Positions 23,633 to 35,213 of a stretch of 62,985 bases of DNA are shown one piece after another. Both the position numbers and the translations under genes were made by a program. Position 1 is the stretch's first letter; each line of letters begins with the position of its first letter. Below the pieces are notes generated by a model. That model ran no database searches and was not told the origin of the DNA. It was given only the letters and a program-made list of their open reading frames with translations. Source of the DNA: Myxococcales bacterium (lineage in GTDB: Bacteria > Myxococcota_A > Polyangia > GCA-2747355); NCBI GenBank assembly GCA_020431405.1, contig JAGQIK010000479.1:1-62985 (forward strand). The letters are read 5' to 3'.

Positions 23633-26065
23633 ATGCGGAACGCCTTCTCTTACCTAACCCTTACCCTCGCCATCCTGGGGCTTGGCGGCGCCACGATGCT
23701 CGGGGCGTGCGCGAGCAGCTCCGCGCCGCCCGCCAAAGTCGACGGGCGCGGCACCGACGGTGGGCTCGACGGCCAGCCCGACGCCGATCCTTGCGCCGGC
23801 AAGAGCTGCGACGACAAGCTCTCGTGTACCGAGGACACGTGCGTCGCGGGCAAGTGCGAAAACACGCTCAAGGCCGACGCCTGCCTCATCGATGGCAAGT
23901 GCTACGCCAAGGGTCAGGGCGACAACGCCACCAACAGCTGCTACGTCTGCGATCCGAGTCAGTCGAGCAGCGCCTGGAGCGACGACACGAGCCTCTGCGC
24001 TGATGACGGAAAGAGCTGCACCGACGCCAAGTGCGTCTCCGGCAAGTGCGAGCACGAGGTGCAGCTCGGCTACTGTCTGGTCAGCGGCAGCTGCTATCAG
24101 GACGGCGCCGCCGACCCCAACAACGAATGTCAGGTCTGCGACAGCGGCAGCAAGAGCGATGGGTTCTCGGCCAAGAGCAACGGCGCCGCCTGCGCTGCCG
24201 ACGCGCTGAGCTGCACCGACGACGTCTGCGACGCCGGCAGCTGCACGCATCCCGTCAAGAGCGGCAGCTGTCTGATCAGCGGCGCCTGCTACGCCGACGG
24301 CGAGGTCAACCCCACCAGCGACTGTCAGGGCTGCGACGCCAGCGCCGAGCAGCTCGCCTGGACCACGCGCGCCGATGGCAGCGCGTGCGCCGACGACGGC
24401 CTGACCTGCACCGAAGACAAGTGCCAGAGCGGCGCTTGCTCGCACCCGCTCAAGGCCAACACGTGCTTGATCACCGGCTCGTGCTTCGCGGCCAACGACA
24501 CCAATCCGCAGGCGGAGTGTCAGCTCTGCAACCCGGCCACGTCGACCAGCGCGTGGACCAACAAGGCGGGCGGCACGCCGTGCACCAGCGACGGCCTGGC
24601 GTGCACCAACGACGTGTGCGGCGCTGGCGTCTGCACGCACCCTGTCGCCGCCAACACGTGTCTGATCAGCGGCAGCTGCTACAACGACGGCGACAATCAC
24701 CCCGGCGTTCAGTGCAGGCGCTGTATCGCCTCGCAGTCCAACACGCAGTGGTCGGTGACGCCCGACGGCGTTGCCTGCGCGGATGACTCGCTGTCGTGCA
24801 CCGACGACGTGTGCGGCGCGGGCATCTGCACGCACCCGATCCGCAGCGGCCAGTGCTTGATCAACAACGCCTGCTACGCCGCGGACGCGCAGGTTGGCGC
24901 GTCGACAAGCTGCAACTCGTGCGTGCCTTCGGTCTCGCAGATCGCCGCGACGCTCACCGACGGGCGCTCCTGCGACGACAACGACAGCGGCACGGGCGCC
25001 GACATGTGCCTCGCCGGCATCTGCCGCGGCTTCAACGGCTGGACGTGGGAGTGGTCGGGCACCGACACCGACACGGCGCTTCACGACGTGGTGCGCGCAT
25101 CCGACGGCAACATCTGGGTCGCAGGCAGCTTCGTCAACGGCTTCAGCGAAAACCGCGGCCTGATGGCGCGCCTCTCGCAGGGCACGGTCAGCAACCTGAC
25201 GCTGGTGACGGCGCCGATGCGCTCGCTGCACCATCGCGTCGCCGTCGGCGACAACGGCACCACGCGCTGGTTCAACGGCATCGCCTGGGTCAACCCGACC
25301 ATCGGCAACTTCGGCGGGGCCAACCTCACCGGCGTGTGGGGCCGCACGTTCGCCTCGACCTCGGCGCACTACATCTCCGGCGACGGCGTGCTGCAGCTCT
25401 GCGAGACCATCGACAACGGCGCCAACTTCGCCTGTGGAACGTACTCCGGCTTCGGCACGGACAACCTGCGGCGTGTGGTCGGCACGGTGATGCCGAGCGG
25501 CGCGCCCGATCGCCTGTGGGCGGCGCGCGGCAGCGTGGCCGAGGACATCTTCAGCGCGCAGGGCGGCTCGACGGTGCTCTCCAAGGCGGCACCGGAGGGC
25601 TGCACCGACAGCGCCGGCTCGCCGTGCGGCAACTCGCCGGGACCGCTTCTCGACCTGTGGGCGCGCGACGCCAACGAGGTCTGGGCGGTGGGCAACGCCG
25701 GGCTGGTGCTGCGCTACGACGGCGCGGGCTGGACCAGCGTGCAGATCCCGACCATCACCGGCCCCGAGGCACCGCAGGTCAACTACGTCTTCCGCGGCGT
25801 GCACGGCGACGGTGACCTGGTGATCCTCGTCGGCGAGCGCACCTGGGGCGGCCTCTTCTACGACCTGATCATGGTCGTCTACAACCGCGCGCTCGACCGC
25901 TGGTTCGACGTGCGCGCGGTGGACTTCACCAACATCACCGACCCGCGCCTCGCCTCGTGGCGGCTCAACGCCGTCGGCGGCCCGCTGACCAACCTCTACA
26001 TCGTGGGCAGCAAGTGGGTCATCGGCGAGACGCAGCAGAAGGCGCTTCACATCGCGCGCCCCTAG
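23633..26065 (+). CDS. Cys-rich repeat lipoprotein with propeller-like C-terminal half
   Basis: 810 residues. Lipobox LGAC (Cys26). Residues about 52-465 consist of six tandem modules of about 65 residues with eight Cys each, following the scheme LSCTDDVC-GxC-H-xCLISGxCY-NP-C-xxC; a seventh is partial. Residues about 470-810 hold spaced strands ending in motifs such as NIWVAGSF, HHRVAVGDNG and NEVWAVGNAGLVLRYDGAGW, typical of propeller-like repeats in Myxococcota lipoproteins. Similar repeats occur inside the exporter encoded by the next, convergent gene, whose stop lies 4 bp away. Likely a surface adhesin or receptor; ligand unknown. Confidence 0.78.
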   Translation: MRNAFSYLTLTLAILGLGGATMLGACASSSAPPAKVDGRGTDGGLDGQPDADPCAGKSCDDKLSCTEDTCVAGKCENTLKADACLIDGKCYAKGQGDNATNSCYVCDPSQSSSAWSDDTSLCADDGKSCTDAKCVSGKCEHEVQLGYCLVSGSCYQDGAADPNNECQVCDSGSKSDGFSAKSNGAACAADALSCTDDVCDAGSCTHPVKSGSCLISGACYADGEVNPTSDCQGCDASAEQLAWTTRADGSACADDGLTCTEDKCQSGACSHPLKANTCLITGSCFAANDTNPQAECQLCNPATSTSAWTNKAGGTPCTSDGLACTNDVCGAGVCTHPVAANTCLISGSCYNDGDNHPGVQCRRCIASQSNTQWSVTPDGVACADDSLSCTDDVCGAGICTHPIRSGQCLINNACYAADAQVGASTSCNSCVPSVSQIAATLTDGRSCDDNDSGTGADMCLAGICRGFNGWTWEWSGTDTDTALHDVVRASDGNIWVAGSFVNGFSENRGLMARLSQGTVSNLTLVTAPMRSLHHRVAVGDNGTTRWFNGIAWVNPTIGNFGGANLTGVWGRTFASTSAHYISGDGVLQLCETIDNGANFACGTYSGFGTDNLRRVVGTVMPSGAPDRLWAARGSVAEDIFSAQGGSTVLSKAAPEGCTDSAGSPCGNSPGPLLDLWARDANEVWAVGNAGLVLRYDGAGWTSVQIPTITGPEAPQVNYVFRGVHGDGDLVILVGERTWGGLFYDLIMVVYNRALDRWFDVRAVDFTNITDPRLASWRLNAVGGPLTNLYIVGSKWVIGETQQKALHIARP

Positions 26066-26069
26066 AGCG

Positions 26070-29000
26070 CTAGCGCTGCGCGTCGCGCTTGCGCTTCTCG
26101 CGCAGCCCCATCAGGCCCGGCAGCGTATAGGTCGCCGCGACGAAGATGCACGCCAGGCCGATGATCGCGAGCTGGCCTAGCGAGCGCAGGCCGGGGTGGT
26201 CGGCGAGCGCCATATTGCCGAAGCCGACGATGGACGTGCAGGCGCAGAAGAAGAGCACCCAGTAGAGCGCGCCGCGCACGAGCGCCACCGACTCCTTGCC
26301 CTCCTCGAAGCGGTGGATGAAGTGCACGCCGTAGTCGATGCCGATGCCGACGAGCGCCGGCAGCACGACGAAGTTGAACATGTTGAGCTTGATGCCGAGC
26401 ACGTACATCACGCCGAACGTCCAAAGGAACCCGATGCCCAGCGGAACGCAGGCGAGGCCCGCCAGCTTGATGCTGCGAAAGTCGACCCAGCAGGCGACAA
26501 AGACCACCAGCAGCGCGACGACGAAGGCGATCTTGCCGTCGTGCAGCATCACGTCGACCACCTCGGCGATGACCAGCTCGCCGCTCGATGCCGAAAAGTG
26601 GCCCGACGGCGTGACGGCGGCGGCGAGCTTGGGCTGCACCGGCACGAGGCCGGGACGCGCGATGGCGAGCAGGTCGCCGCGCAGGCCGCCTTCGACGGCG
26701 AGCTTCTTGGCCACCGCCTGCGCGTTGCCGAGCACCTGCGCGAAGACGGGCTTGCCGTCGTAGGCGAGCGCGACGAGCTTGGCGCGACAGGCGGCGACGG
26801 CCTTGGCCTCGCCGCCGCAGCCGACCTCGACGCGCTGCCCCTCGACGAAGACCTTCGCGTCGGGCAGCAGGTGCGCGACGCTGACCATCGGGCTGCCTTC
26901 GAACTTGCCGACCTGGTTTTTGAGGCGCCGCGCCTGGCGGCTGTCGCTGATGTTGATGCCGTAATAGACCATGCCGAGCCACGAGTCGCCGTAGCCCGGG
27001 CCGTGAAACGCGCGCCGCACGCTGGGCGGCAGATCGCGCACGCCGAAGGGCGTGGCTTTGGACATGGCGCGCAGCTTCTCGAGGCGGATCTTCTTTTTCG
27101 ACTTGTCGGGCACCAGGCGCCAGCGGCGGCTGTGCAAGAGCTTCGAGATGCCGGCGATCAGCACGCGCTTTTCGGCCTGCCGCTGCGGTACGGCGGCGAG
27201 GATCGACGACGCGCGGCGCACAGCGCTCTTGTCGCCGAGGCGCCGGCGCGTGCGCTCGACGGCATCTAGCGCCGCGCGCAGGCGATGGCGCGACCCGGTG
27301 GCCATCACCGTAGGCGTGAACGACTGACCGAAGCAGTGATCGGAGCGGTGCAGGATCTCGCTGCGCTCGCCGGTGGGGCGCAGCACGCGGTGGTTGTACT
27401 CGAACGACAGCTGCGTGGTGCCGACGACGCCGAAGACGGCCGCCGCGGCTGAAACGACGAGCACCACGCGCGCCGCGCGCAGCGGAGCGCTGGGCTGCTT
27501 CTTTTGCGCGTCGGAGGCGGCCGCGAGGCGCAGCAGGCCGAAGCGCTCGGCGAGCACCAGCAGCGCCGGCTGCACGCACAAAAAGCTCACCAGCGCGAAG
27601 AGCACGCCGAGGCCCGAGATGAAGCCGAACTCGGAGAAGCCGCGAAAGTCGGTGATCAGCAGCGTCAGCAGCGCCGCGGCGCTGGTCAGCGCGGACGTCG
27701 TCGTCGCGCGGCCGGTGCCGAGGATCATCTGGTCGAGGGCCTCCTCGCGCGGCAGCCCCAAGACGCGCACCTCGCGATAGCGGCCGTAGAGCTGGATGCC
27801 GTAATCGATGCCGACGCCGAAGATCACGGCGAACAGAAAACCCGTGACCATGTTGAGCGTGCCGATGGTCAACGCCGTCAGGCCGAACGTCCACGTCAGG
27901 CTCATCGCCAGCGGCAGCAGCACGAAGAGCAGCGCCAGCAGGCGCCGCATGTAGAGCACCAGCACGAGCACGATGCCGGCCACTGCGAGCCAGGCGAGGC
28001 CCGTGATGTCCTCGATGGTGGCCTCGTACTCGGCGATCTTGGCTACGCCGTCGCCGCCGATGTCGACGCGCAGCAGCGGGTCCACCGCGTGGTAGTTGCT
28101 CTTGTCGATGATCGCGCGCAGCTCGCGGCGCAGGCGGCGCAAGCTGGCGATGTCGGAGCCGCCCTTCTTGGGGAACACCAGCACGCCGACGGAGGCGCCG
28201 TCGTAGTGCTGGTAGTGCTCGCTGCGCTGCGCGGCGCTCGCGCGGTACTTGCGAATGAGCTCGGCGACCTCGTCCTTGTCTTTCTTCTTGTCCTTGTCGT
28301 CGTCGTCGAGGTCGACGTAGAGACCGGTGGCGCGCGCGGTCTCGCGCTCGAGCCGGTCGGCGAGGTATTTGTGGATCTTGTGCAGGTCGGCGATGGACGC
28401 GTAGTAGAAGGCGCGGTCGATGAAGAACTGCACCGGCTTGCGGTATTCGACGCGCCCCACGAGCTTGCTCGCGAGCAGCGTCTTGGCCAGCCGCGGCAGA
28501 AAGTCGATGATCGCCTTCATCTTGTTGGGCGGGCGCCAGACGGCGCTGTAGGCGCGCGTGCAGGGCTTTTTCGGCGCGAGGAAGGCGGGCGGCCAGGCGC
28601 TCTTCTTTTCCTTCTTGGAGTCCACCGGCCCGTCCCACCAGTTGACCATCATCCACTTCTTCTGCGGGCCGCGCTCGCGCCGCACGGGCGTCGTGCGGCG
28701 CTCGAGCGAGCAGTGGCGGCCGACGGCCCAGATGCGGTCGGCGCGCAGGCCGTGCAGCGCGCGCATGTCGTCGTCGATGCGGAAGATCTCCTTGACCACG
28801 CGCTTGCCGTCGAAGCGCAGCGCCGTGCCGCGGTCGCCGACGGCGAAGACGGCGTCGGGCCGCTCGCCCCACACCGCGTTAAGGTTGGCGCGCGTGCCGC
28901 TGTCGAGCGCACGCCAGCGCTGCTTGCCGTCGTAGTGCAGCAGCGTGCCGCCGTCGCCGGCGATGAAGACCTGCCCGTCCTTGGCGACCCAAACGCCGCG

Positions 29001-29675
29001 CAGTCGCTGCTTGCTGGGCACCGCGACAGCTGTCAGCACGCCGCCCTTGTCTACGCGCAGCACGGTGCCGCCGTCGCCGACGGCATACAGCACCGAGCCG
29101 TTGCCCGAGACCGCGCGCAGCGTGGCCTTGCTGGAGGAGGCCACGCGATGCCACTTCTTGTCCGCGCCGCGGCGCAGCACGGCGCCGCCGCCGCCCACCG
29201 CGTAGAGCTCGCCCGCGCTGCGGCCCCACAGCCCGCGCAGCGTAACGTCGCTGCCGCTCGACTCGCGCTGCCACGTCTTGCCGTCCCAGTGAAAGACGCG
29301 CCCCTTGGCGCCGGCGGCGAACACGTCGCGCACGGCGAAGCCCCACAGCGCGTAGAGCGGCGCGCCGGTGGGCGTGGCCTTCCAGCGCATGCCGTCGTGC
29401 ACCAGCGCGTGGCCCTGCTCGTCGGTGGCGTAGAGGAAGTTGCGGCTGAGCAGCACCATGAATCCGGTGTCGCTGGGCTGCTTCTTCTGGATGCGGCGCA
29501 GCTCGACCAGGTCGGGGTGATCGGCGGGCAGCAGATCGGCGAGGTCGGTGTTGAAACGCAGCCGCCCGACGAGCATCACGCTCGCCACCGTGGCGACCGT
29601 GGCCACCAGCAGCGTCAGCAGCGGGCGCCGCGTCGTTCGTCGCGCCAGCGCCGTCAGGCGAGAGAGGATGTCCAT
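26070..29675 (-). CDS. RND/MMPL-family exporter with propeller-like insertion in loop 1
   Basis: 1201 residues. TM1 (about 18-36) is followed by the usual start of an RND periplasmic domain (LRFNTDLADLLPADHP). Residues about 78-320 then hold seven repeats of about 35-40 residues ending in VFAAG, LYAVG, VFIAG, VFAVG or IWAVG and often WDG or YDG, a beta-propeller pattern. Two RND membrane halves follow, each with a GVGIDYG- or GIGIDYG-type motif in TM4 (GVGIDYGIQLYGRYRE and GIGIDYGVHFIHRFEEG), as in MMPL/HpnN-like lipid exporters. The loop also has a Lys/Asp-rich segment (DLDDDDKDKKKDKDE). Substrate unknown; a lipid or hopanoid-like cargo is the family expectation. Confidence 0.85.
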   Translation of the reverse strand: MDILSRLTALARRTTRRPLLTLLVATVATVASVMLVGRLRFNTDLADLLPADHPDLVELRRIQKKQPSDTGFMVLLSRNFLYATDEQGHALVHDGMRWKATPTGAPLYALWGFAVRDVFAAGAKGRVFHWDGKTWQRESSGSDVTLRGLWGRSAGELYAVGGGGAVLRRGADKKWHRVASSSKATLRAVSGNGSVLYAVGDGGTVLRVDKGGVLTAVAVPSKQRLRGVWVAKDGQVFIAGDGGTLLHYDGKQRWRALDSGTRANLNAVWGERPDAVFAVGDRGTALRFDGKRVVKEIFRIDDDMRALHGLRADRIWAVGRHCSLERRTTPVRRERGPQKKWMMVNWWDGPVDSKKEKKSAWPPAFLAPKKPCTRAYSAVWRPPNKMKAIIDFLPRLAKTLLASKLVGRVEYRKPVQFFIDRAFYYASIADLHKIHKYLADRLERETARATGLYVDLDDDDKDKKKDKDEVAELIRKYRASAAQRSEHYQHYDGASVGVLVFPKKGGSDIASLRRLRRELRAIIDKSNYHAVDPLLRVDIGGDGVAKIAEYEATIEDITGLAWLAVAGIVLVLVLYMRRLLALLFVLLPLAMSLTWTFGLTALTIGTLNMVTGFLFAVIFGVGIDYGIQLYGRYREVRVLGLPREEALDQMILGTGRATTTSALTSAAALLTLLITDFRGFSEFGFISGLGVLFALVSFLCVQPALLVLAERFGLLRLAAASDAQKKQPSAPLRAARVVLVVSAAAAVFGVVGTTQLSFEYNHRVLRPTGERSEILHRSDHCFGQSFTPTVMATGSRHRLRAALDAVERTRRRLGDKSAVRRASSILAAVPQRQAEKRVLIAGISKLLHSRRWRLVPDKSKKKIRLEKLRAMSKATPFGVRDLPPSVRRAFHGPGYGDSWLGMVYYGINISDSRQARRLKNQVGKFEGSPMVSVAHLLPDAKVFVEGQRVEVGCGGEAKAVAACRAKLVALAYDGKPVFAQVLGNAQAVAKKLAVEGGLRGDLLAIARPGLVPVQPKLAAAVTPSGHFSASSGELVIAEVVDVMLHDGKIAFVVALLVVFVACWVDFRSIKLAGLACVPLGIGFLWTFGVMYVLGIKLNMFNFVVLPALVGIGIDYGVHFIHRFEEGKESVALVRGALYWVLFFCACTSIVGFGNMALADHPGLRSLGQLAIIGLACIFVAATYTLPGLMGLREKRKRDAQR

Positions 29676-29740: not shown

Positions 29741-30892
29741 ATGCGCAAGCGACGCGTCTTCTATCTGATCTCCTCGTTCGCCCAGGGAGGCGCCGAGCGC
29801 CACCTGCTCGAGCTTCTGCGCTGGCTCGACCACGACCGTTTCGAGCCGATGGTCTGCGTGCTGCGCGACAACGTGCACTACACCGGTGACCTCGGCGATC
29901 AGCCGCGCTACCGACTAGGCGCCAACCAGTGGTACTGGCCGGGCCCGCTGACGCGCCTGGTCAGCGCGCTGCGCGACAGCCGCGCCGACATCGTGCACAC
30001 CTACCTCAACGACGCCAACCTGTGGGGCCGGCTGGCGATGCAGCTCGCCCCTAGTGTGCCGATGATCACGTCGGTACACCTCGACGACATGTCGGCCTTC
30101 TATCGCGGCGCCGAGCGGCTGCTGCATCCGCTCAGCGATCGCATCGTGGCGCACTCGGAGAGCATCCGGCGCTTTCTCACCGGTCGCCTCGGCGTGCCCG
30201 ATCATCGCGTGCACGTGATCGTCAACGGCGTCGATCCTCAGCGCTTCGCCGTCGCCGACGAGGCGCAGCGCGCCGCCGCGCGCGCCGCCTTCGACATCGA
30301 GCCGGGACAGTTCATCGCGCTGATGCCGGCCCGCATCGCGGCGCAGAAGAACCAGGACCTCGTCGTCGCGACCCTCGCCGAGATGCGCGAGGCGGGGCGC
30401 CTGCCGGCCAACTTTCGCCTGCTGCTCGCCGGGCGCGTCTCCGAGCGCTGGGTCGACATCAAGACGCGCTACCTGATCCGCCGTCATAGCCTCGGCGACG
30501 TGGTGCGCTTTCTCGGTGCCGTACGCGACATGCAGTCGCTGCTCTGGGCGGCTGACGTGGTGCTCTTGCCGTCGCGCACCGAGGCGTCGCCCATCGCGGC
30601 GCTCGAGGGGCTCAGCGCAGGTCTGCCGGTGGTCATCTCCGACACGTCCAACACCGACACGGTGGTGGTCGACGGCGAGCACGGCTTCGAAGTGCCGAGC
30701 GGCGACCGCGGCGCGCTGGCCGACGCGATCAGCCGCACGCTGGCGCTGACGCACGCCGAGCGCGCCGCCATGGGCCGCGCCGGGCGTCAGCACATCGAGG
30801 CCCACTTCACCACCGAGCGCGTGGGCCGCGACTTCATGGCGCTCTACGACGAGCTCACGCTGGCATCGCGCGCCGCGAGCGGGAATACTTGA
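29741..30892 (+). CDS. Glycosyltransferase family 4 protein
   Basis: 383 residues, GT-B fold, cytosolic or membrane-associated. The N-terminal acceptor domain has FAQGGAERHLLELLRWL, the Gly-rich loop typical of GT4 enzymes. The donor domain includes MPARIAAQKNQD and the EX7E signature RTEASPIAALEGLSAGLPVV near residue 280. GT4 enzymes transfer a sugar from a nucleotide sugar to glycans or lipids; donor and acceptor cannot be read here. It stands alone, without polysaccharide genes nearby. Confidence 0.88.
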   Translation: MRKRRVFYLISSFAQGGAERHLLELLRWLDHDRFEPMVCVLRDNVHYTGDLGDQPRYRLGANQWYWPGPLTRLVSALRDSRADIVHTYLNDANLWGRLAMQLAPSVPMITSVHLDDMSAFYRGAERLLHPLSDRIVAHSESIRRFLTGRLGVPDHRVHVIVNGVDPQRFAVADEAQRAAARAAFDIEPGQFIALMPARIAAQKNQDLVVATLAEMREAGRLPANFRLLLAGRVSERWVDIKTRYLIRRHSLGDVVRFLGAVRDMQSLLWAADVVLLPSRTEASPIAALEGLSAGLPVVISDTSNTDTVVVDGEHGFEVPSGDRGALADAISRTLALTHAERAAMGRAGRQHIEAHFTTERVGRDFMALYDELTLASRAASGNT

Positions 30893-32084: not shown

Positions 32085-32227
32085 TCTCTGGCCACCTCGG
32101 AGGCCACGGTGGGGGCTGAGACCCACTGGCAGTGTCGCGCGCGGCCCCCCAGCAGGGATCTTCCAGGCGAAAAAACCTTTCAATTACAAAGCGAAAAGAT
32201 GGCCCATGGGTTGCTCTAACAGCTGAC
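32085..32227. promoter_or_regulatory. Intergenic region before the first protease gene
   Basis: 143 bp. The left part is G+C-rich and includes TGGCC-N8-GGCCA (about 32088-32105), which may help end transcription of the HExxH gene. Bases about 32168-32200 are unusually A+T-rich for this genome (AAAAAACC, TTTCAATTACAAAG) and probably include the protease promoter, though no clean -35/-10 pair is seen. Confidence 0.3.
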
Positions 32228-33733
32228 ATGAGCCGTCGTTCCGCCGCCCTCCTCACCGCCCTCCCGCTCTTCATCACCGCTGCCTGCGCCCCCGACCTCG
32301 ACGGTCAGGGCGGCGAGCGTACGCCCTACGTGGTCAACGGCCAGACGCACTCGGGACACCCGTCGGCTGGCAAGCTGACGCACTCGGGCAGCCTCTGCAC
32401 GGCGACCCTCGTGGGCAAGCGCACCGTGCTGACGGCCGGTCACTGCGTGACGCCCGGCGCCCCGCACACGTTCACCCTCGACGGCGTGGCCTACCAGTCG
32501 GCGCAAGTGATCCGCCATCCGCAGTACAACTCGGCGCAGATCTCCAACGACATCGCGATAATCATCCTCGCCAGCGAGCCGCCGGTGCAGCCCGCCGCGG
32601 TCAACACCACGGTGCCCACGGTCGGCACCGAGATCACCATCGTCGGCTACGGCAAGACCAGCGAGAACAACTCCAACGCCGGCACCAAGCGCATGGCCAA
32701 GAGCACCATCGCCGAGGTCACGCCGACGCGCATCCGCATTCCGCAGTCCACCAGCAACACCATGGGCAATGTCTGCAACGGCGACTCGGGCGGCCCCAGC
32801 TACGCCATCGTCAACGGCCAGGAAGTGCACATCGGCATCCACTCGACCAAGTCGGGTGCCTGCGGCGCCGGCGGCCACGATGTTCGCGTCGACGCCTTCA
32901 TGCAGTGGATCGAGCAGAACGCCGGCGGCGACCTCAACAAGGCCGGCGGCAGCACCACGCCGCCGCCGGGCGGCAACACCCCGCCCGATCCCGGCACGCC
33001 GCCCACGCCTCCGCCCGGTGGCACGACCCCCGGCGACACCACCGCGCCGCGCGTGGTCGTGACCTACCCCGCCGCGCTGGCCAAGATCCCGGCGCAGGTC
33101 GTGATCAAGTCGCAGATCACCGACGACGTCGGTGTGGTTCGCGCCGAGCTGCTCGTCGATGGCCACATCGTCTCCACCGCCAGCGGCACGACCTTCGACT
33201 TCCCGGTCACGCTGCAGCCGGGCGCGCGCATGCTGCAGATCGTCGCCTACGACGCGGCCAACAACAAAGGCCAGGCCAGCGTCGCCGTCACCGTCGAGAG
33301 CAGCGCCACGCCGCCGCCGACCACGCCGCAGCAGCCGAGCGAGCCGAGCCAGCCGCAGACGCCGCAGGCGCCGCCGCAGGCGCAGGGCACCTTCGGCCAG
33401 GTCTGCAGCAACGGACAGGCCTGCCAGAGCGGCATGTGCGGCTTCGATCCCGACACGCAGCAGAACTACTGCACGCAGCAGTGCAGCGGCGGGCAGATCA
33501 ACGACTGTCCCAGCGGCGCGCAGTGCTTCGCCAGCAACACCCCCGGCACCTTCGTCTGCGGTCCGCCCTCGTCAGGTCCCGCTCCGCTGGCCCCGAATCC
33601 GAGCCCGCAGAACCCGCAGCTCGATGGAAGCCAGCTGGTGGGCGGATGCTCGGTGGCGCACGGCGGCGCAGACCTCGGCGTGATGTTCCTCTTGCTCCTC
33701 GGCCTCGCGATCATCTCTCGCCGCTTTCGATAG
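32228..33733 (+). CDS. Secreted trypsin-like serine protease with MYXO-CTERM tail (copy 1)
   Basis: 501 residues. Signal peptide with a possible lipobox (TAAC). S1 protease: VLTAGHC (His near 73), SNDIAI (Asp near 111) and NGDSGGP (Ser near 187), with VVNGQ at the usual mature N-terminus. A Pro/Gly/Thr linker leads to a bacterial Ig-like domain (about 275-360), then a Pro/Gln linker and a Cys-rich module (about 390-450). The tail GGCSVAHGG, a hydrophobic helix and RRFR fit the MYXO-CTERM sorting signal, in which a rhomboid-like or CPBP-type protease trims the protein for surface attachment. Tandem paralogue downstream. Confidence 0.88.
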   Translation: MSRRSAALLTALPLFITAACAPDLDGQGGERTPYVVNGQTHSGHPSAGKLTHSGSLCTATLVGKRTVLTAGHCVTPGAPHTFTLDGVAYQSAQVIRHPQYNSAQISNDIAIIILASEPPVQPAAVNTTVPTVGTEITIVGYGKTSENNSNAGTKRMAKSTIAEVTPTRIRIPQSTSNTMGNVCNGDSGGPSYAIVNGQEVHIGIHSTKSGACGAGGHDVRVDAFMQWIEQNAGGDLNKAGGSTTPPPGGNTPPDPGTPPTPPPGGTTPGDTTAPRVVVTYPAALAKIPAQVVIKSQITDDVGVVRAELLVDGHIVSTASGTTFDFPVTLQPGARMLQIVAYDAANNKGQASVAVTVESSATPPPTTPQQPSEPSQPQTPQAPPQAQGTFGQVCSNGQACQSGMCGFDPDTQQNYCTQQCSGGQINDCPSGAQCFASNTPGTFVCGPPSSGPAPLAPNPSPQNPQLDGSQLVGGCSVAHGGADLGVMFLLLLGLAIISRRFR

Positions 33734-33770: not shown

Positions 33771-33806
33771 CTGTTGGCTCTGCTCCGCCGGGAACGAAGC
33801 ATTGCC

Positions 33807-35213
33807 ATGCGCAAGACCCTTCTCAGCATCCTCGGCCTCGGCGCCGCCCTCGGCCTCGCGGCCTGCGCTCCCGACGACGTGCTCGTGCACTTCGGCAGCG
33901 AGTCCTCGGCCATCACCGACGGCACCCCGCACAGCGGCCACCCCTCGGTGGGCCAACACACCGCCGGCGGTGGCCTATGCACGGCGACGCTGATCGGCCC
34001 GCGCACCGTGCTGACCGCAGCGCACTGCGGCGCGGGCAGCGGCAACTACTTCGAAGTCGGCGGCCAGCGCATCGCCGCCTCGCAGCGCATCGTTCACCCG
34101 CAGTACAGCGCCTACGGCAACGCCAACGACATCTCGATCCTGATCCTCTCGCAGGCGGTGACGAGCGTACAGCCGACGCCGATCAACATCGCCACGCCCA
34201 CCGTCGGACAGCCGATCACCCTCGTGGGCTACGGCGTGACGAGTGAAAACGGCAGCGACTCGGGCACCAAACGCATCGCCAAGAACTCCATCGCCACCGT
34301 GCGCGCCACGACGATCTCCTTTCTCGGCTCGGGCAACGGCACGGGCAACACGTGCTACGGCGACTCCGGCGGGCCGGCCTTCGTCACCGTCAACGGCGTG
34401 GAGGTCGTCGCCGGCGTGACGTCCTACGGCACGCCGCCCTGCGGCGTCGACGGCGTCGACACGCGCGTGGACGCCTACAAGGACTGGATCGCACAGGTCT
34501 CCAACAACGACGCGCTGATGGGCGAGCCGCCCAAGCCTGCCGACTCGACCGCGCCCACGGTTCGCATCGTCAGCCCGACGCCCGGCGGCAAGGTCGCGAC
34601 GTCGCTGACGCTCTCGGTGGACGCGCGCGACGACACCGGTGTCGCGCGCGTCGAGGTCGCATACGGCGGCGCCATCGCCGCGGTGCGCGACACGGCGCCC
34701 TACGACTTCCAGCTGCAGCTCCAGCCCGGCCAGCACCGCATCGACGTGCGCGCGCTCGATGGCGCGGGCAACCAGGGCACGGCCTCGGTCACCGTGACCG
34801 TCGACGCCGGCGCGACGCCCACGCCGACGCCGTCACCGGGCACCTACGGCGCGTCGTGCAGCGTCGGCGACAACTGCCAATCCAAGATGTGCGCCGAGGA
34901 CCCCGACTACCTCGGTCAGAAGTACTGCACGCAAGCGTGCACCGTGCAGACGGGCTGTCCCAACGGCGGGCAGTGCTACCGCACGGCCGACCCGAGCCTT
35001 CACGTCTGCGGCAAACCGCCCGTGGGCCAAGGCGGCGGCAACAACAGCGGCGGTGGTGGCGGCGGCAGCACACCCGGCACCAACCCCGACGCGCCGAGAC
35101 CGCTCGACGGCGGCTTGACGTGCGCCATGGGCAGCGAGATCGCTGCGCCCCCTCTCGCCTCGCTGCTCGCGCTCGCGCTGCTGCTGCTGCTAGCGCGCCG
35201 CCGCCGGCGCTAG
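33807..35213 (+). CDS. Secreted trypsin-like serine protease with MYXO-CTERM-like tail (copy 2)
   Basis: 468 residues from the ATG at 33807 (signal MRKTLLSILGLGAALGLAAC). Same layout as its upstream neighbour: S1 domain with VLTAAHC (His near 72), ANDISI (Asp near 108) and YGDSGGP (Ser near 187), Ig-like domain (about 250-340), Cys-rich module, Gly/Asn linker and a tail with Cys (LTCAMGS), hydrophobic helix and RRRRR. The two proteases clearly come from a tandem duplication but differ widely in linkers. The gene overlaps the convergent receiver gene by 4 bp. Confidence 0.87.
   Translation: MRKTLLSILGLGAALGLAACAPDDVLVHFGSESSAITDGTPHSGHPSVGQHTAGGGLCTATLIGPRTVLTAAHCGAGSGNYFEVGGQRIAASQRIVHPQYSAYGNANDISILILSQAVTSVQPTPINIATPTVGQPITLVGYGVTSENGSDSGTKRIAKNSIATVRATTISFLGSGNGTGNTCYGDSGGPAFVTVNGVEVVAGVTSYGTPPCGVDGVDTRVDAYKDWIAQVSNNDALMGEPPKPADSTAPTVRIVSPTPGGKVATSLTLSVDARDDTGVARVEVAYGGAIAAVRDTAPYDFQLQLQPGQHRIDVRALDGAGNQGTASVTVTVDAGATPTPTPSPGTYGASCSVGDNCQSKMCAEDPDYLGQKYCTQACTVQTGCPNGGQCYRTADPSLHVCGKPPVGQGGGNNSGGGGGGSTPGTNPDAPRPLDGGLTCAMGSEIAAPPLASLLALALLLLLARRRRR

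Follow-up and report, generated by a model that had tools for sequence, protein, structure and literature searches.

Pumps of the MMPL and HpnN type pass lipids across the periplasm without the adaptor and outer-membrane channel of classical exporters, and how they do so is an open question in the field. The sterol transporter BstA, whose periplasmic porter domain on its own binds sterols methylated at C-4, has been proposed to work with the separate carrier proteins BstB and BstC (PMC10942540). In addition, MmpL3 co-purifies with the separate seven-bladed protein MSMEG_5308 (Rv1057 in M. tuberculosis), a non-essential partner that stabilizes the MmpL3-TtfA complex (PMC6593404). The transporter described here resembles MmpL3, MmpL4, and MmpL5 in its MMPL fold and the MmpL3 system also in its use of a seven-bladed propeller, but it carries this propeller on its own polypeptide, inserted into PN1 of the porter domain. 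MSMEG_5308-MmpL3 may be taken as the nearest functional precedent.

The gene spans positions 26070–29675 on the minus strand of the window, i.e., the whole stretch of 62,985 nucleotides that was analysed, and encodes 1201 amino acids from an ATG in a frame without internal stops; the initial annotation gave no strand. Its product matches Pfam MMPL with 115.7 bits (curated cut-off 20.5) in two stretches lying in both halves of the protein, which together with structural matches to HpnN, MmpL, and AcrB bears out the RND/MMPL part of its initial annotation. The best curated family models are the hopanoid transporter HpnN followed by BstA, both of which share the RND/MMPL fold in both halves of the protein, though each scores below its own cut-off (TIGR03480, 250.8 of 751.85 bits, and NF052374, 149.4 of 1100, for HpnN; NF045600, 173.5 of 1400, for BstA). 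Models of mycobacterial exporters were not reached either (TIGR00833/actII, 139.7 of 874.7; the MmpL3 model gave no match), while the closest solved relatives by sequence are HpnN (6wu0, 5khn) and MmpL4/5. Compared to HpnN (5khn, 5khs, 6wu0) and BstA, the pump has a propeller of ca. 290 residues extra in loop 1 and ca. 94 extra residues in loop 2. A frameshift or assembly artefact that fused two genes is ruled out: no stop interrupts the frame, and the ortholog from a second family shows the same in-frame join. The architecture is thus that of an HpnN/MMPL-type RND transporter with a propeller within it. We read the protein, at a probability of about one half, as a proton-driven, HpnN-type exporter of lipids that carries its own docking platform in the periplasm.

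AlphaFold2 models of the two halves, run separately (N-terminal model, residues 1–730, with 30 aligned sequences and a mean pLDDT of 85.3; C-terminal half, 83.1), each contain a six-helix membrane part and a periplasmic loop with porter alpha/beta subdomains. TM1 (residues 19–37; 29565–29621, minus strand like all features below) was placed by hydropathy and coincides with model helix 18–36; it follows an Arg-rich N-terminus, which would place loop 1 on the periplasmic side. Next comes the start of PN1 up to its first strand at residues 72–77 (residues 39–77; 29445–29561; alignment with 28 relatives). Beyond the propeller, the remainder of PN1 and PN2 (residues 385–545; 28041–28523) was assigned from the alignment with relatives, the AlphaFold2 model, and Foldseek, and the N-terminal half outside the propeller consists of regular helices and strands with Foldseek matches to HpnN and MmpL4/5. 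TM2–TM6 (27540–28040) were aligned to the ortholog and to HpnN and contain the GxGIDYG motif (GVGIDYG; Asp624-Tyr625), with Asp624 aligned to HpnN Asp344. In the second half, PC1/PC2 of periplasmic loop 2 (residues 758–930; 26886–27404; alignment, model, and structural matches) are followed, after a further insert discussed below, by TM8–TM12 (26082–26540; alignments and structural matches) with the second motif, GIGIDYG (Asp1114-Tyr1115). This half matches HpnN, MmpL, AcrB, and Patched by Foldseek and VIA, with Dispatched also among the structural matches.

These proton-relay motifs lie in TM4 and TM10, and the ortholog has both Asp-Tyr pairs unchanged. Since the porter and membrane parts match known folds and both pairs are kept, the motor looks intact. 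The structural matches to Patched and Dispatched would also suit a receptor or sensor, as Patched and SCAP are among RND-like proteins, and not an exporter; ligand binding by the propeller would then elicit a response from the membrane part. SCAP likewise couples a sterol-sensing, RND-like membrane domain with a propeller, albeit on the other side of the membrane. We consider such a role very improbable given that the Asp-Tyr pairs are intact and invariant in both halves, as in a working proton relay, and that the closest families are transporters.

The propeller itself is recognizable from seven repeat anchors of the type [VIL][FYW]A[AV]G (LYATD-81, VFAAG-118, LYAVG-157, LYAVG-196, VFIAG-236, VFAVG-276, and IWAVG-315) that are spaced 37–40 residues apart. 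Self-comparison of the domain gave 223 high-scoring windows, whereas 200 shuffles averaged 5.9 and never exceeded 24, so that the repeats cannot be put down to chance or low complexity; two stretches of similar length elsewhere in the pump gave 3 and 7. In the AlphaFold2 model, pLDDT is ca. 90 or more over most of residues 78–290 and 77–81 at blade 7. Seven-bladed propellers top the VIA-align results for model residues 79–384 (Z 31.2, rmsd 2.2, 273 of 286 residues aligned to a designer protein), and the best Foldseek matches in the PDB are Ycf48 (2xbg) and designed seven-bladed propellers. Loop 1 is therefore predicted with high confidence to hold a closed seven-bladed propeller of four-stranded blades that leaves the porter fold intact, the feature that the initial annotation had asked to look for in a predicted structure.

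The extent initially given for these repeats, residues ca. 78–320, falls short of the full insertion. Blades 1–7 cover residues 78–328 within PN1 (28692–29444) and are followed by a low-confidence linker of ca. 40 residues that is predicted to be disordered (residues 329–371; 28563–28691; pLDDT 42–60) and is shorter in the ortholog. A final segment (residues 372–384; 28524–28562) completes the propeller and leads back into PN1; because its closing strand (376–380) comes after the disordered linker, the full insertion runs from ca. 78 to 384, matching the VIA range of 79–384. Cys322 in blade 7 and Cys372 just before the closing strand are both kept in the ortholog and may form a disulfide. There is a single, clean insertion point, which follows the first strand of PN1 (GFMVLLS, residue 77) and precedes the first PN1 helix (from residue 387). 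No such insertion is present in any of 28 aligned MMPL proteins from the source genome and its relatives, as judged from an alignment of the N-terminal halves; a mixed alignment was left out because MAFFT drew TM1 of the relatives into the propeller.

Beyond loop 1, to which the first description of this gene was confined, loop 2 carries an insert of its own. This small orphan alpha/beta segment of ca. 94 residues (931–1024; 26604–26885) lies at the end of PC2, contains two cysteines, and is modelled with pLDDT values mostly of 57–79, dropping to 41 near its end. It is missing from all 27 aligned relatives, and only the ortholog has it (42% identity). Neither Pfam nor the PDB offers a relative, the PDB profile matches being ribosomal noise, and no believable match besides the ortholog was found in 59 related genomes; the sole weak match outside the order (E 0.004, in genome G009) lies in an unrelated frame. 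Each half of the porter thus bears one extra piece, and both pieces occur together in the two carrier genomes.

This arrangement bears on the main rival to a docking platform, namely that the propeller is a structural lid or oligomerization element that closes the porter cleft or bridges protomers and thereby alters gating or stability. The propeller sits at the heart of PN1 by the substrate-handling cleft, the insert of loop 2, at the end of PC2, has been conserved along with it and could contact it, and RND and MMPL proteins are discussed in the literature as dimers or higher oligomers. However, the 40-residue linker predicted to be disordered is more like that of a loosely tethered module than of a rigid lid, and we regard the lid or oligomerization role as somewhat unlikely. 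It is rather unlikely, too, that the protein represents a separate line of RND exporters in which the propeller and the second insert, one per porter half, co-evolved as a built-in periplasmic hand-over device.

The full architecture is known from two sequences only. The full-length ortholog belongs to another family of the same order (genome G003) and shares ca. 47% identity over residues 3–1195, with the propeller in register. Among 318 genomes of the class, the threshold for full-length-type matches was passed only by this genome and the source genome as carriers; two others (G108 and G109) passed the same threshold with matches that begin no earlier than residue 392 and are devoid of the propeller. 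When 379 genomes were sampled evenly across the phylum, just the pump of the window was recovered. Overall, no propeller pump beyond these two was found among roughly 690 genomes of the phylum. The order is thinly sampled, with four genomes, two of them 67% and 83% complete, so that little weight attaches to absence from its other two members (G001 and G002). Across 84,980 species, two pattern scans, a method that reaches near relatives only, retrieved no further transporter with a propeller: the first gave no loci and the second four, of which two (L040 and L041) are free-standing propeller proteins. Long MMPL frames in three genomes (G012, G030, and G046) were also considered as insertion carriers and rejected, since their extra length lies upstream of TM1 and their MMPL profile match is continuous.

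Several observations point to a common origin of the two insertions. The two inserts are mutual best matches, with 151 bits as opposed to 135 or less for free-standing propellers. Their blades also follow the same order: the diagonal scores 446 and cyclic shifts 173–280, and only 4 of 5040 permutations are as good. We therefore favor a single insertion before the two families split; these computed comparisons support shared ancestry and make independent insertion in the two genomes unlikely. The identity between the inserts is 40%, while most of the remaining protein reaches 44–56% (membrane and PC parts, 53–57%), as would suit a domain that is kept but changes faster.

Separate proteins with the same repeat abound in the class: 29 of 96 class genomes have a match at 1e-15, the source genome has about a dozen strong matches, and single relatives have up to 15. 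This pool is therefore the most likely source of the pump's propeller. The free-standing proteins (e.g., contig C536 of the source genome and C186 of G007; motif LxAVWGxSxxDVFAVGDGGTILHYDGxxW) show up to 42% identity to the propeller of the pump but differ from it in being separate proteins, often with lipoprotein-like N-termini, several of them with these and Cys-rich stretches, and many with more than seven repeats. Those of ca. 940 amino acids in the source genome (C536, locus L052 3391–6234 and 8630–11464, minus strand; C259, locus L057) share a Cys-rich N-terminal part and 12 or so repeats and form a large paralogous family. More distantly, the propeller is related to the photosystem II assembly factor Ycf48 (PF14870; 2xbg), its top Foldseek match, with a sequence match that stays under the cut-off (18.4 bits versus 27); Ycf48 differs in being a separate protein without a membrane transporter and shares 14% identity. 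The fusion to a pump is new, but the domain itself is not.

With so many propellers in circulation, one might suppose neutral or weakly useful domain shuffling, i.e., that a propeller hopped into the transporter without any specific function being gained. The size of the free-standing pool speaks for this. The insertion, on the other hand, has been kept since before the split of the two families, in register, with its closed count of seven blades and its cysteine pair conserved, and its 40% identity is set against the 44–56% of most of the remaining protein. We therefore judge a functionless propeller improbable.

The neighborhood of the gene names no partner, as no neighbor is conserved between the two genomes. 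Upstream and divergent, 65 bases off the pump gene, lies a GT4 glycosyltransferase gene (29741–30892, plus strand). On the other side, a convergent gene for an 810-residue protein (23633–26065, plus strand) ends 4 bases from the stop codon of the pump; its product combines Cys-rich CSDGLxCTxDVCxxGxCxHP modules with a subsequent partial set of similar propeller repeats. The ortholog is instead flanked by genes for a HEAT-repeat protein and an amino-acid permease. No conserved partner gene thus adjoins the pump in either the source window or G003, and the initial suggestion that the propeller recruits a lipoprotein, polymer, or carrier found no backing there. Among the scanned neighbors, none matched BstB or BstC. 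Further along the window, two tandem trypsin-like proteases (32132–33733 and 33774–35213, plus strand) have C-terminal ends that resemble MYXO-CTERM, with scores slightly short of its cut-off, as would fit an origin from a myxobacterium.

The assignment of a lipid-like substrate follows from HpnN and BstA being the best curated models, though far below their cut-offs, and export of such a substrate is probable; a hopanoid was not adopted as a firm substrate because the family cut-offs are not reached. The source genome encodes one triterpenoid cyclase (C102, locus L076 1474–3519) that scores 783.5 with the oxidosqualene cyclase model, just under the cut-off of 851, versus 256.9 with the hopene cyclase model (cut-off 431). 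Bacterial sterol synthesis is possible on this basis, and the cyclase gene permits but does not show a sterol-like substrate of the pump.

According to our preferred reading, the protein would be an inner-membrane, proton-driven RND/MMPL pump that takes a lipid or some other hydrophobic compound out of the inner membrane and into the periplasm. The propeller would sit at the periplasmic face beside the porter as a rigid, built-in docking platform and hold in place, above the exit route, a partner from the periplasm or outer membrane, be it a carrier, a lipoprotein, or another copy of the pump. It would thereby do in cis the job that separate accessory proteins do in other exporters. We propose the docking role tentatively and at slightly less than even odds.

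A literature search, with many subscription journals outside its reach, turned up no account of a propeller within the porter domain of an RND/MMPL protein, and the described MMPL/HpnN families tested bear out the earlier impression that no standard family has one there. Pump and propeller each belong to a known family, and their combination is new. The "new exporter class" of the initial annotation overstated the case: in its motor, its porter fold, and its family matches the protein agrees with the known HpnN/MMPL group, and what we describe is a new domain architecture within this group.

The insertion nonetheless teaches that PN1 tolerates an additional 300 residues behind its first strand, a lesson of use to engineering and to the interpretation of extra domains in RND proteins. 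As a natural fusion, the pump also offers a candidate hand-over or scaffold domain that could be deleted, swapped, or used as bait. If the hand-over reading is true, one polypeptide would replace the complexes of pump and accessory proteins found in other lipid exporters.
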